Assembly (NCBI GenBank): GCA_938017975.1
Contig: CALIKQ010000009.1
Location: 1 to 64,000, forward strand
Reading direction: 5' to 3'
Origin: an uncultured Pseudomonadales bacterium
GTDB lineage: Bacteria; Pseudomonadota; Gammaproteobacteria; Pseudomonadales; Azotimanducaceae
DNA: 64,000 bases
Shown in pieces: positions 58,895 to 63,998 of this stretch. Both the position numbers and the translations under genes were made by a program. Under the pieces are notes generated by a model. The model was not told where the DNA came from. It searched no databases and saw only the letters and a program-made list of their open reading frames with translations. Each line of letters opens with the position of its first letter. The first letter of the stretch is position 1.

Positions 58895-61210
58895 TTAGAA
58901 TTTTGTGCTCATTTCTTTCAGGAGTTCTGCCAACTTCGAGCGCGTAAAAGGCTTCGAGAGTACCGGCACATTTGCTGGCAAGACCTCACCCCTCCTGGTT
59001 AACTCCCTCAGATCACCGCTGGTTATGGCCAATTTAAGGTTCGGGAAATCACGCTTACAGAGCGCTATAAAATGAAGGCCGTCCCGTTGCTCTGGTATTC
59101 TCAAATCAGAGATCAAAATGTCAACTGGCTTTGATTCATCCATTAGAGCTCTTTGCGCTTCCTGAGGGCTTGCGACATCAATGGTCGAATATCCCTCCGC
59201 TTCTAGATAACTTTTAGTAATAAATCGAACATCATCATGATCATCAACTAAAAGAACCCGGTTTTTTTTGAGCGCCGATTGTGATTGGTTGATTGGAACA
59301 GACGCCCTCGTCTCTCCATCAGAGGAGCGCTTTTGCGACAGACCCCTGAAGTGTGGTGACCCAACGGCGGGCCTTTCGACCTCTGGCTCGCTTAGCAGCT
59401 CTGAAGTTGTCGCCTCGGCGACTGGCAAGTAGATGAAAAAGGTTGTTCCAAAGCCCAACACGCTTTCCACCCTGATGTGGCCCCCGCTCTGGGCAACAAA
59501 CCCGAAGACCATCGCCAAGCCCATTCCTGTGCCCTTCGTTTTCGTCGTGTAGAAGGGTTCAAAAACCCTCTGAACAACTGCTTCGCTCATCCCCTCACCA
59601 TCATCCCGAACAGACAACACAACAACTTGCTTACCTTTGAGTTCATCAGGCAAAAAAGACGCGATATCTTTCGTGCTAACTGCATTCAAAGCGAGGTTGA
59701 CGTTTCCGCCCTCCGGCATTGCATGACGGGCATTGACAATAAGATTGAGCAGAGCGCTGTTGAGCGCCGAGATATCCAACCGAGTCAGTATTCGCTCAAG
59801 ATTCGAGTTAAAATTGATTGAAACTTTTTCTCCGGCGGCCTGTTCAAGAAGTGGTAAATTTCGGCGTACTGCTTCGAAGAGATTGATTACTTGAGGATCA
59901 AGGTCCTGTTTTTTAGCAAAAGCGAGTAACTGCCCTATCAAGTCAGCCCCTTGCTCGGATGCGCGTTCTGCAATCGCTAAACTGCTTTTTACCTGGGCCG
60001 AGGCAAGGTCAGATGATCCTTTAATGGTATCGATCGCGCCTTGTATCAATTGGAGTAAGTTATTGAAATCATGCGCGACACCCCCCGTCAATTCACCGAG
60101 TGACGTCAGCTTTTGCGCATGCGCTAAATTCATCTCTAATCGCTTACGACCACTCATATCGCGAATAAAAGATAAAAGCAGCCTCCTACCTTCTAAATCA
60201 ATGCTCGAGGATGTGCTTTCGACGGGAATTTCATCGCCATTTTTTGAGATTAAAATAGATTCACGCTGATGCGCCCGGATCTTCGACACAATTCGAACAC
60301 GCTCGAACCACTCCGTTCGATCTAGGCTAGGACTGATATCAAATACTCCCAGTGTGAGTAATTCCTCTTGGGTATAGCCAAGAAGCTCAGTCGCGGCATC
60401 ATTGGCATAAACGATTTCTCCTTCGCCCTGGGCAAATAATACGCAGGCATCGCCAGCGCCATCGAGGATCGATTTTAGACGCTGCTCATTTTCCTCTATC
60501 TGGGCCATTTGGAGGCGTTGTCGACCCAAACTTTGATTGATCCCGTGAACCAAAAGTCCAATCTCGTCAGCTTCATGTCCCTGCGGTATGCCCAGACCTT
60601 GCTCTTCAGCAGATGCTGATTGGAGCCCCAGCACCACTTGTCGAAGGGGGAGAATCAATAGATAACGCAGACTTAGGACCAAGACAATTAAAGTCAAAAA
60701 TGTTCGTAAAACTCCGATCCAAAACAGTTGGCGAGAGCGCTCAGCAAAGCCAGAGAGACCGCGCTGTTGATTGATTGTCAGATGCAACCTACCCACAGCT
60801 TCTGCCTTAGTTGCTGACATCTCGGGTGTAGAAAAAAGGGCGATGGACTGATCGAAAGAATTTTTCGGCAGCAGAAAGGAAACAATGGGTGTCCGAGCTA
60901 ACGGCTCTTGAACAACTCTCTCAAACAAAATACTGCCATTGGCGTCTTCGATAATCAGCGCTTCAATTGTTTTGTTGAGCATCAATCCTTCAACAATTTG
61001 CGAGATCATAAGGAGGTTGTTTTGATCAATTGCTCCGGCAATTAGCGGCGCGCTGTTAAACGCCGCTTGATCGACTCGCTCGATATTTGCGTTCAACTCA
61101 TTCAGCAAGTCAAAGTAAGCTCGCCCTAGATTGAAAATCAATGTGATCCCCACGATCACCACCAGAACAATCAAGGTGACGCGGTTCGCTAACGATTTAG
61201 AGATCATCAA
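58895..61210 (-). CDS. Hybrid sensor histidine kinase with PAS and C-terminal receiver
   Basis: Membrane kinase of 771 residues. The first transmembrane span lies at about 11-30, an extracytoplasmic sensor at 31-160 and the second span at about 163-187. A HAMP-like region and a PAS domain (about 240-355) follow. The phospho-acceptor is H380 in GGVAHDFNNLLQLI, and the ATPase has NLIVNARHAMPEGG, DDGEGMSEAV and TKGTGMGLAMV. A receiver domain begins near 650 with D702 in SDLRIPE and a late LSKPF. It would phosphorylate itself or a separate regulator; no DNA-binding partner is adjacent. The signal is unknown. It follows the selenoprotein gene on the same strand after 92 bp. Confidence 0.9.
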   Translation of the reverse strand: MMISKSLANRVTLIVLVVIVGITLIFNLGRAYFDLLNELNANIERVDQAAFNSAPLIAGAIDQNNLLMISQIVEGLMLNKTIEALIIEDANGSILFERVVQEPLARTPIVSFLLPKNSFDQSIALFSTPEMSATKAEAVGRLHLTINQQRGLSGFAERSRQLFWIGVLRTFLTLIVLVLSLRYLLILPLRQVVLGLQSASAEEQGLGIPQGHEADEIGLLVHGINQSLGRQRLQMAQIEENEQRLKSILDGAGDACVLFAQGEGEIVYANDAATELLGYTQEELLTLGVFDISPSLDRTEWFERVRIVSKIRAHQRESILISKNGDEIPVESTSSSIDLEGRRLLLSFIRDMSGRKRLEMNLAHAQKLTSLGELTGGVAHDFNNLLQLIQGAIDTIKGSSDLASAQVKSSLAIAERASEQGADLIGQLLAFAKKQDLDPQVINLFEAVRRNLPLLEQAAGEKVSINFNSNLERILTRLDISALNSALLNLIVNARHAMPEGGNVNLALNAVSTKDIASFLPDELKGKQVVVLSVRDDGEGMSEAVVQRVFEPFYTTKTKGTGMGLAMVFGFVAQSGGHIRVESVLGFGTTFFIYLPVAEATTSELLSEPEVERPAVGSPHFRGLSQKRSSDGETRASVPINQSQSALKKNRVLLVDDHDDVRFITKSYLEAEGYSTIDVASPQEAQRALMDESKPVDILISDLRIPEQRDGLHFIALCKRDFPNLKLAITSGDLRELTRRGEVLPANVPVLSKPFTRSKLAELLKEMSTKF

Positions 61211-61302: not shown

Positions 61303-61815
61303 TCACGCTTCCGAAAGCGCGCGAACCACCTGAGGAAAAACGTTCTCTGCAATTCGACGAACCTCATCATCAGTTCGGTCTTGAATAGGATGCTCAACAA
61401 ATAGCTGATAAGGATGGAAGCCAAGCGAATCGCCTTGCGCCTCTGCTGCCTGCTCAAATTCTACAGTCGCCACAAAGGCTCCAGGAAGTCCTCGGCGATC
61501 CAAATCTAAAATGTCATGCAAACTGCACGACGTGCAAGAGCCTCAGTCTGCTAACGCTTCGAGGACAGCATCGCATGAACCCGCAATTTCTTGTCGAAGG
61601 GCATCAGGCGCAACGCGCGTAAAAGTTGGCTTTTTGAATCGCTTTGTTTTTGCGCCGTGTTGAAGCAGCAAATCCTCTATCCGGTCGATAAAAACATCCC
61701 CCCTAGGCTTAGCTATATCTAGCAGCCCAATTGTTTTTCCAACCAACGCGTTGAGCCTTGGTAATGGCTGCCGTCCTTCGGGTTGTAATTCAGAAGTTGG
61801 GTCAAGTAATTCCAT
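61303..61815 (-). CDS. UGSC-family selenoprotein (in-frame UGA = selenocysteine at residue 91)
   Basis: The frame from ATG 61815 reads 90 codons to a TGA at 61543-61545, then continues open for 79 codons. Across the TGA the product reads ...LEALAD-U-GSCTSCSLHDILDLD, which is the UGSC motif that names this selenoprotein family. Total 170 residues, Sec91 and Cys94. Both halves look coding, and a stem-loop of SECIS type begins 12 bases after the TGA. AAGGAG lies six bases before the ATG. It follows the thioredoxin-fusion gene after 12 bp, itself coupled to kdsB. A thiol/selenol redox role is expected from the U-x-x-C pattern; the substrate is unknown. Selenocysteine insertion requires selA, selB, selC and selD elsewhere in the genome. 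Confidence 0.87.
61513..61531 (-). promoter_or_regulatory. Bacterial SECIS stem-loop of the UGSC gene
   Basis: The mRNA segment GTCGTGCAGTTTGCATGAC folds into a 7-bp stem (one G-U) with an AGUUU apical loop. The loop starts 19 nt after the UGA and has G at its second position. Bacterial SECIS elements have a small loop about 16-37 nt downstream of the UGA with a G in the first two loop bases, so all criteria are met. Confidence 0.82.
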
Positions 61816-61827
61816 AGCGATCTCTCC

Positions 61828-63246
61828 TTATGCTAAAACAATTTCTCGGGTCACTGGCACGCTTCCCATACTACCACTGGCACCCCATCCAGCAATAATC
61901 GCTGAGAACAGGCCAGCACTGCCTCCAGCGCGTACGATATTGAGTCCATCCGGTCTGAATTTACACAAAATTCTATCGCTGAGCCCGACCGGAATTCCTT
62001 CAGAGATCCCTCCTGCACCCTGAATGAGCTCTTCTCCGGGAATCATCAAAAGCTCCAACAGCCTTGATTTCAATTCCTGCTTAGACCAGCCACCCTCCCT
62101 GAAGACACGTTCATGCTCGGGGGAAACGACCAGAAAGGCGTCAGAGCCCATCACCATTTTCGGATGACCAATCACACGTAAACCGCTAGCAAATGAGCGA
62201 CATAGAGACTCAGGTGTTCTTGATTTTTGATCGACTAGGCCCTGCATCCCATCTGCAGCAAAAACAGTCACAGTTGATGTTTCTTTGGAGAATCCTCGCT
62301 CTATCGAAAGAGAATCCCAACACGAATTAACTTCATCCTCTGCGAAGCAAAAAGTGTACTTGCCCGGGTTGCCTAGGGCCGCTCGGTCGACACCTCCAGG
62401 TTTTCCGCCGCCGACATTCCGAATTAGAAGTTGCAAAGCTCTTCCAATAGTCGCGTTCGCACGATTGCCCTGCCCCAAAGCATTTCCACCAGAATTCATG
62501 CCAATCGAACGAGAAAGTGGACCATTGACGATCAATAAAGGACCCGAAAAATAGGTCGTCGCCAAGAGGCCGTGCATACAAAATTGATCTTCCAAGACCG
62601 CCTCGACCGCAGTGATTACGACGGGTAGATATTCCGGGAGACAACCCGCTAAAACAGCGTTAATTGCAACTTTTTCTATCGTGCAGACCGCATAGTCGGG
62701 GGGCACGCGTCCGATCACCTCAGCCGGCTCACGATGAGTGCCTTCTAGCATTCTCATCACTCGCTCAGGCGTCGGTGGCACAACCGGCAGGCCGTCACTC
62801 CAACCTTGATCAAATCCAACCTCAAGCTCGTCAGCGTGATCAAAATTCAATCTCCTTGAGCGCAGCCGCTCAGGAGCAAATCGAGCCGCCAGCTCGGCCT
62901 GGCGGCCTGGATCATGCGTCATCGATCCACATCCCGGCCTAAACTTGGGCAAGTCTGTATCAAATTCAATCCCTAGCAGTCCGGACCATGCTGTCTCGTC
63001 CCAGCCAAAGATTCTGGAGGACTCTTGGCCGTCACGCATCACAATCAGCGTCGGAACAATTTCAATATTCAGCTTAAAGCTCTGCTCTAAACTTTCATCG
63101 AAGGTGACCGGTACGTTAGCCGGAAAGGATGATGAATCCTGGCAGATCACCTCGAGCTTATGCGCCTTAGCAATCTGAGGAACTAGGGGTTCTATCATGA
63201 GGCAAGTCTCACAACCTTGCTTCATCACCAGTTTAAGCTCCGTCAT
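61828..63246 (-). CDS. Thioredoxin-fold fusion protein partnered with the UGSC selenoprotein
   Basis: Protein of 472 residues. The first 90 form a thioredoxin-like domain with C12-x2-C15 (GCETC) and a cis-Pro loop EIVPTLIV. PGCGSMTHDPG then leads into a larger domain of unknown function with GWSDGLPVVPPTPERV near 150, AGCLPEYLPVV, NGPLSRSIGMNSGGNALG and AGGISEGIPVGLSD. No transmembrane span or signal peptide is visible. The ATG overlaps the kdsB stop by four bases, and the selenoprotein gene follows after 12 bp. I infer that the two act together, the thioredoxin module perhaps recycling the selenoprotein. Confidence 0.75.
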   Translation of the reverse strand: MTELKLVMKQGCETCLMIEPLVPQIAKAHKLEVICQDSSSFPANVPVTFDESLEQSFKLNIEIVPTLIVMRDGQESSRIFGWDETAWSGLLGIEFDTDLPKFRPGCGSMTHDPGRQAELAARFAPERLRSRRLNFDHADELEVGFDQGWSDGLPVVPPTPERVMRMLEGTHREPAEVIGRVPPDYAVCTIEKVAINAVLAGCLPEYLPVVITAVEAVLEDQFCMHGLLATTYFSGPLLIVNGPLSRSIGMNSGGNALGQGNRANATIGRALQLLIRNVGGGKPGGVDRAALGNPGKYTFCFAEDEVNSCWDSLSIERGFSKETSTVTVFAADGMQGLVDQKSRTPESLCRSFASGLRVIGHPKMVMGSDAFLVVSPEHERVFREGGWSKQELKSRLLELLMIPGEELIQGAGGISEGIPVGLSDRILCKFRPDGLNIVRAGGSAGLFSAIIAGWGASGSMGSVPVTREIVLA

Positions 63247-63998
63247 TTATTCACTCCCTGAAAATTAAGCCTCGCCCGCTTTAAATCATCTGCGGTGTCA
63301 ACGCCTGGTGGAACCTTTGAAGCAGCTTCTAGGACATGAATCGATCTTCCCCGCTGGAGCGCCCTAAGCTGTTCAAGTTTTTCTATATTCTCGAGCTCTC
63401 CAGTGGGCCAAGTGACAAACTCTTTCAGGAATTTAACGCGATAAGCGTACAGGCCAATGTGTCGAAGATACGTTGAATTGTTTGAGGGGGTCAGCCCATC
63501 TCGATCAAAGGGAATAGTCGCGCGACTGAAGTACAGTGCCCTGCCACTTTTGGTAATGACTACTTTCACACTATTGGGGTCGGATAGCGTTTCGCTGCTT
63601 TCAAATCTGCAAGCCAGCGTAGCCATATCAGCACCAGACGCCGCAAGCCCCTCGGCAACTTGATCGATACATTCCGGCGGCATCAAGGGCTCATCACCCT
63701 GCAAATTGACGACAATGGTTTCGGGATCCAAAGATAAAGACACTGCGGCTGCCGCCAGCCTATCCGTTCCAGATTGTAGCGAAGGTGAAGTCATCACTGT
63801 TTCGCAATTAGAGCGCTGCAGCACTTCAAAGACAGCCTCATGATCAGTTGCGACAATGGTGCTACTGGCTTTACTCTTTTGAGCTTGCTCGACGACTCGC
63901 TGGATCATTGGCTCGCCACAAATATCTGCGAGCGGTTTCCCAGGCAGGCGTTGACTATGCCATCGCGCAGGAATAATCACCACAAACGAAGTGGTCAC
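63243..63998 (-). CDS. kdsB: 3-deoxy-manno-octulosonate cytidylyltransferase KdsB
   Basis: CMP-KDO synthetase of 251 residues for lipopolysaccharide core. SFVVIIPARWHSQRLPGKPL is the CTP loop, IVATDHEAV, QSGTDRLAAAA and VVNLQGDEPLMPPECI follow, and LYFSRATIPFDRDG and RHIGLYAYR bind KDO. The GTG at 63998 gives the family N-terminus (MTTSFVVIIPAR), two bases from the window edge. Its stop overlaps the start of the thioredoxin-fusion gene. Confidence 0.95.
   Translation of the reverse strand: MTTSFVVIIPARWHSQRLPGKPLADICGEPMIQRVVEQAQKSKASSTIVATDHEAVFEVLQRSNCETVMTSPSLQSGTDRLAAAAVSLSLDPETIVVNLQGDEPLMPPECIDQVAEGLAASGADMATLACRFESSETLSDPNSVKVVITKSGRALYFSRATIPFDRDGLTPSNNSTYLRHIGLYAYRVKFLKEFVTWPTGELENIEKLEQLRALQRGRSIHVLEAASKVPPGVDTADDLKRARLNFQGVNK

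Follow-up and report, generated by a model that had tools for sequence, protein, structure and literature searches.

The two adjacent minus-strand frames at 61303-61815 of the window (the whole 64-kb stretch of DNA that was analysed) represent, on strong sequence evidence, a single UGSC-family selenoprotein gene, in which the UGA at codon 91 would be decoded as selenocysteine (Sec). We propose, with a probability of roughly 0.7, that this selenoprotein and the product of the gene upstream of it form a two-component enzyme that is regenerated by thioredoxin and performs reductive chemistry similar to that of GrdB.

The UGSC gene, its in-frame UGA and the downstream hairpin

The upstream frame (61543-61815, minus strand) is an ATG-initiated ORF of 90 AAs terminated by the TGA at 61545-61543, and the downstream frame (61303-61521, minus strand) is a TTG-initiated ORF of 72 AAs in the same phase. 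Reading this TGA (61543-61545) as Sec results in one frame of 170 AAs (61303-61815, minus strand), which terminates at a second UGA (61305-61303) and carries Sec at position 91 within LADUGSCTSCSLHD. An AAGGAG ribosome-binding site (61824-61829, minus strand) lies 8 nt ahead of the ATG and overlaps the TAA of the partner gene. The original prediction had described two same-phase minus-strand frames parted only by the TGA, a U-G-S-C-T-S-C junction and an AAGGAG before the first frame, and the ORF coordinates and the translation agree with it. Its assignment of the 170-AA product to the UGSC family was borne out by two family models that align across the UGA with scores over their cut-offs, NF041046 (142.2 bits, cut-off 125, E 1e-41, residues 26-167) and PF24696 (140 bits, cut-off 25, E 1e-40, residues 2-168). 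Decisive for the reality of the frame is that one curated profile aligns through the TGA. The active-site motif of the window protein is U91-G-S-C94, and U/C-G-S-C is invariant in all rows of an alignment of 18. A scripted search for open runs joined by a TGA (at least 75 codons plus at least 70 codons) found two places in the 64-kb window, one being the UGSC gene and the other lying on the opposite strand of the same region.

The window gene adds a member to a known family (NF041046, PF24696), whose motif, length, UxxC and Sec/Cys exchange it shares with no defining difference. UGSC proteins have been on selenoprotein lists since 2008 (PMC2398784); Table 2 of that year's GOS survey gives 255 Sec and 21 Cys sequences (PMC2398784), and a 2026 review still places the family among the largely uncharacterised selenoproteins (PMC13188914).

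Homologues were counted in 58 genomes, that of the window and 57 relatives, where 59 of a total of 66 UGSC matches are longer than 400 nt and are referred to as full-length. Exactly one TGA falls inside the match in 58 of these 59, a count made by eye for a TGA anywhere in the match; its exact place was verified in 31 loci, and in all 31, once aligned, the TGA stands on the Sec column. In the exception (G016:C111, locus L129, 9478-9909) Ser occupies the Sec column (IGDSECSSAS); this copy is moreover the sole full-length one without a partner match within 500 bp, the active residue and the partner having been lost together. Eleven distant homologues were read, eight with Cys (three actinobacteria, Arthrobacter, two Natrinema, Roseovarius and Variovorax) and three with TGA (two Paracoccus and Acidovorax), so that the Sec/Cys alignment at position 91 anticipated for homologues was found in near and distant relatives. 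The three actinobacterial Cys forms were retrieved with a Cys-only pattern (a contig scan yielding 32 stretches and 3 loci). Among the forms read, Sec and Cys both occur in proteobacteria, and Cys occurs in actinobacteria and haloarchaea. The Cys form of Arthrobacter sp. ERGS1:01 (L132:8015-8830) carries a NifU-like domain (PF01106, E 4e-6) as a C-terminal extension. On the Paracoccus ferrooxidans plasmid pFER4 (L134) the UGSC gene is annotated as two hypothetical proteins (WGR63593 and WGR63594) split at the TGA, which illustrates how gene callers cut UGSC genes in two; selB is located 4.4 kb downstream of it.

A bacterial SECIS is a hairpin just after the UGA with a G early in the loop. The candidate in the window (61513-61531, minus strand), described through alignment, folding and frozen synonymous sites, pairs nt 15-21 with nt 27-33, counted from the U of the UGA, and consists of 7 bp (one of them G-U) and an AGUUU loop containing the GU. 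The stem begins at the 12th nt past the UGA, and this pairing matches the 7-bp stem, the loop and the 12-nt start given in the original prediction; the RNAfold version has 8 bp and a 3-nt loop. The stability of the window hairpin is unremarkable alone (z -1.78 for 43 nt and -0.76 for 55 nt), and over nine folds z ranges from +0.42 to -4.93. Each of six predicted pairs is retained in 30 or 31 of the 31 sequences and two-sided changes were found in none of the six; since conservation of the stem leaves no room for covariation, synonymous-codon diversity was used instead. In the 26 of 31 sequences retained after an 85% identity cut, mean codon heterozygosity was 0.088 at five conserved hairpin residues versus 0.617 at 25 conserved residues elsewhere, four conserved residues between the UGA and the hairpin (heterozygosity 0.36-0.62) being excluded from both groups. 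The GU of the loop is kept in 30 of the 31 aligned sequences, along with a nearly identical CGTGCAGTTTGCATGAC; a paralogue (L021) is without the conserved loop. We read the low codon diversity of the hairpin as a probable sign of purifying selection on the RNA, as expected of a SECIS, and this constraint suggests that the hairpin functions as a SECIS.

The partner gene and its thioredoxin links

The partner gene (61828-63246, minus strand), recognised as an ORF and by its conserved adjacency, stops 12 nt short of the UGSC start codon and encodes 472 AAs, with a thioredoxin-like N-terminal domain (residues 1-93, 62968-63246, minus strand) and a conserved core (approximately residues 140-472, 61831-62829, minus strand) that is common, by homology, to distant partners. 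A partner homologue adjoins UGSC in all 31 loci first inspected and lies within 500 bp of 58 of the 59 full-length UGSC matches (61 of 66 when all are counted). The partner profile matches 35 of the 58 genomes, precisely the 35 that carry UGSC, and 61 of 65 partner matches are within 500 bp of a UGSC match; the other four are split-gene pieces in G012 and G034 and matches in G002 and G004 without UGSC on the same contig. The order of the two genes varies, the partner being upstream in the window and downstream in the paralogue at contig C45.

The pairing was also seen in actinobacteria and haloarchaea. Twenty-four plasmid records match the partner, nine of which were compared by coordinates with UGSC matches, and in all nine UGSC-bearing records (from Natrinema, Halorientalis, Halalkalicoccus, Embleya, Paracoccus and Acidovorax) the partner adjoins UGSC. 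The partner-matching plasmid loci inspected were those of Arthrobacter, Roseovarius, Variovorax SRS16, Sporomusa and Vibrio. On the Halorientalis (L130) and Halalkalicoccus (L131) plasmids a partner copy is present on both sides of UGSC. Plasmids of Sporomusa termitida (L126) and Vibrio europaeus (L133) carry fusion ORFs in which a UGSC-like N-terminal domain precedes the partner core; these domains match NF041046 under its cut-off (E 3.7e-5 and 3.2e-5), and their motif (DMGTS) lacks both U and C. The fusions suggest that UGSC and its partner are physically associated. Both fusion genes are found near genes for aconitase X and a DUF126 protein.

No Pfam or NCBIfam model matches the partner core, and a PDB sequence search with the partner returned thioredoxin-type matches only (best E 0.089). 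Fold searches were filled by the thioredoxin part, the predicted model having a pLDDT of 76.8 overall and mixed values in the core. Kinship of the partner itself to the GRDB-type proteins was considered and rejected (profile E 0.12, no relation).

The N-terminal domain matches TIGR01068 with E 3e-4 and 20.9 bits, far under the cut-off of 96.8, and its fold match has a Z of 7.2 (72 aligned, rmsd 2.2), a Z below 8 being weak by itself. It contains CETC at residues 12-15 (63213-63202), and a CxTC near the N-terminus was found in all 15 partners of relatives that were read (rows from 15 of 29 loci, one strand scripted). Thioredoxin-system genes lie close to the pair in five of the 13 distant loci searched: Arthrobacter and a Nocardioidaceae MAG have the order trxB-trxA-partner-UGSC, Nonomuraea has trxA-partner-UGSC and Roseovarius has partner-UGSC-trxB, while in Variovorax SRS16 trxB is near the pair with two genes between. 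The remaining eight have no close trx gene, six showing none and two weak trxB-like matches further off. A shorter, trx-less type of paralogue is found in the window genome and in related genomes, and trxB is near one of its 14 copies. The thioredoxin link is recurrent and not universal, since a close trx gene is missing from eight of the 13 distant loci and trxB was seen in one of the 14 neighbourhoods of the trx-less paralogue.

Kinship to GrdB and the proposed chemistry

A profile of 41 UGSC sequences was aligned by hhalign with five GrdB/F/H sequences with a probability of 95 and E 3e-8 (a one-pair E-value) over 78 columns, Sec on Sec. The alignment scored 61.0; none of 100 column shuffles exceeded 24.0, and reversing the profile gave 26.2. 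With 18 UGSC versus 16 GRDB-type sequences the E-value was 3e-7; masking eight motif columns in both profiles left a match of E 1.8e-5, and shuffling all but these eight columns gave scores of at most 30.3 versus 53.9, hence the match consists of more than the motif. When the single true GrdB row was left out and the PrdB-like rows of relatives stood alone, the match fell to E 0.022. None of the 18 UGSC proteins is matched by PF07355, even at E values as high as 5, and UGSC is for that reason not a PF07355 member; TIGR01917 is touched by five of the 18, far under its cut-off (best E 0.0095), and its match in the window protein spans the Sec. By these comparisons UGSC is remotely homologous to the Sec domain of GrdB but does not belong to its family. 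A PDB sequence search with the GrdB of L071 gave unrelated molecules only (best E 0.17).

Similarly to UGSC, GrdB, GrdF and GrdH (PF07355, TIGR01917) have the Sec in UG[ST]CT.C, followed in the same order by G[IL]P- and HP[IL]-type motifs; they differ in being proteins of 430-444 AAs with a large N-terminal part that is missing from UGSC. In the GrdB system the partner is a pyruvoyl-forming proprotein; the core of the UGSC partner is without a Pfam or NCBIfam match. PrdB (TIGR04483) and the PrdB-like UPVC and UPNC selenoproteins, two of which are in the window genome, share with UGSC the Sec, the UxxC and similar downstream motifs, but their profile match to UGSC is weak (E 2.9e-4 with three PrdB; 0.022 with the PrdB-like rows).

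The AF2 model of UGSC (pLDDT 90.5) alternates strands and helices, and Sec91 starts the helix 92-107 after the strand 83-89, a helix-start position that favours the selenolate. A thioredoxin fold was rejected for UGSC, as the alternating elements of the model follow another order than in thioredoxin; the best 50 rows of Foldseek and of VIA-align include no thioredoxin, which by itself excludes nothing. The best VIA-align row is 8s7v_H, from the methyl-coenzyme M reductase activation complex (Z 13.1, 129 aligned, rmsd 2.6), and no function was derived from it. Foldseek matches (fungal catalases and others) with a TM of about 0.4 were disregarded, and a PDB sequence search with UGSC gave nothing convincing (best E 0.22).

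We propose that codon 91 is decoded as Sec under the control of the downstream hairpin and that UGSC, as one subunit, supplies the selenol to a two-component enzyme whose other subunit is the product of the upstream gene. During the reaction the UxxC would become oxidised or alkylated; thioredoxin would then reduce it again, a task that here presumably falls to the thioredoxin-like domain of the partner. Judging by the remote homology, the chemistry is most likely reductive and thiol-dependent, the substrate being a small organic molecule that the partner holds. In the glycine-type reductases the selenol attacks a substrate-derived carbon; UGSC would make a similar attack, or would run a selenenyl-sulfide cycle with C94, while the partner would hold the substrate and thioredoxin would close the catalytic cycle. 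As to the substrate, parts of TRAP or tricarboxylate transporters are present in six of the 11 annotated plasmid neighbourhoods read, mostly together with CoA transferases, CoA lyases or LysR regulators, the other five being without transporter parts. These neighbourhoods may hint at organic-acid catabolism.

The UxxC and the thioredoxin links would suit any thiol redox role, and reviews class UGSC with selenoproteins of uncharacterised function (PMC13188914, PMC9312934). Together with its partner, UGSC might serve in general thiol-disulfide redox reactions or in peroxide detoxification, as other UxxC selenoproteins do, and not as a GrdB-like substrate reductase. We consider this unlikely: the order of elements in the UGSC model is not thioredoxin-like, the kinship found by profiles is with GrdB, the partner is nearly always present, and transporter parts of the TRAP or tricarboxylate type are present in six of the 11 plasmid neighbourhoods.

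The GrdB-like two-component reading can be extended further, although we do so tentatively and at somewhat less than even odds. UGSC and its partner may constitute a previously unrecognised, widespread enzyme of organic-acid catabolism, a slimmed relative of selenoprotein B that is fed by thioredoxin and in which the partner replaces the pyruvoyl subunit. Passages on UGSC from six papers (PMC2398784, PMC13188914, PMC9312934, PMC5029168, PMC9402790 and PMC7435645) contain neither a partner of UGSC nor a link to GrdB or PrdB; in the open-licence literature PF24696 is not mentioned and NF041046 occurs in one paper, an earlier report elsewhere being possible. The two-gene module and the kinship with GrdB are a useful addition to the known family; now that UGSC is seen with a constant partner, is linked to thioredoxin and is related to GrdB by homology, its function becomes a question for the bench.

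Selenocysteine machinery and neighbouring genes

The original prediction looked to selA, selB, selC and selD in the same genome, and half of this set was recovered: a tRNA-Sec and selD were found, while selA had no match and selB no match passing the cut-off in the draft assembly of the window genome. ARAGORN places a tRNA-Sec(tca) on contig 24. Its Rfam score of 45.8 bits is just below the gathering score of 47 and a tRNA-Leu reaches 43.6 bits, for which reason we base the assignment on ARAGORN together with the anticodon and the 8-bp acceptor stem read from the sequence. selD is over its cut-off (about 269.1-272 bits) within an oxidoreductase-SelD fusion, which also matches TIGR04369 ('fusion_not_SelD') with 438.6 bits, below the cut-off of 700 of that model. 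SelD is the C-terminal half of this 745-AA protein, encoded 1.5 kb from the tRNA-Sec (L019:8814-11051, minus strand, on G000:C24). Three further genes of selenoprotein families in the window genome have an in-frame TGA, a second UGSC and two GRDB/PrdB-like genes (L127 on G000:C1 and L128 on G000:C41). The latter two score over the PF07355 cut-off with the TGA before PNC and PVC, respectively, and the UPNC and UPVC motifs make it likely that they encode selenoproteins too.

selA was found in 10 of 14 congeners, always adjoining selB, and in the relatives G001, G012 and G013 it is 29-32 kb from UGSC (in G012, selA at C46:249-1589 and UGSC at C46:33609). The window contig C9 is collinear with C46 of G012 down to C46 position 14378 and then ends, about 13 kb short of the syntenic place of selA/selB. 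For the lolC-like gene that belongs in the missing stretch, the window genome has no more than a 26% match elsewhere. As the contig ends before the syntenic place and the lolC-like gene is missing too, the absence of selA/selB looks like an assembly gap. Across the whole genome set, 31 of the 35 genomes in which selA is matched have UGSC, as do four of the 23 that lack a selA match; these four (the window genome, G003, G004 and G014) all belong to the same genus. The congener G003 (93% complete, 8 contigs) has neither selA nor selB, and the high-scoring UGSC copy is also missing from it.

The lack of a selA match and of a selB over the cut-off, shared with G003, would also be expected if both genes had been lost in the species, the UGA now terminating translation and UGSC being a relic here that is functional in relatives. 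We regard this as very improbable: the contig stops before the syntenic selAB position, the lolC-like gene of the missing stretch is absent as well, and selD, the tRNA-Sec, two UGSC genes and two PrdB-like TGA genes have all been kept in frame. That the gene is decayed or mis-sequenced, its frames being two fragments of a former Cys protein, is hardly credible, for although selA/selB were not found in the draft assembly, 58 of the 59 full-length homologues have the one TGA, the RNA stretch behind it is frozen, the frame is intact on both sides and the family score exceeds a curated cut-off.

The gene upstream of the partner is kdsB (63243-63998, minus strand; TIGR00466, 280 bits), which overlaps the partner start by 4 nt. 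It is likely co-transcribed with the partner, its role is probably unrelated, and it gives no functional hint for UGSC. Downstream of UGSC lies a gene for a hybrid sensor kinase of 771 AAs with PAS, HisKA, HATPase and receiver domains (58895-61210, minus strand). Just beyond the window, an ORF of 960 AAs (L059:4303-7185, minus strand; G000:C9:64302-67184) encodes an MsbA-LpxK fusion, which scores 695 bits with TIGR02203 and 224 bits with TIGR00682.
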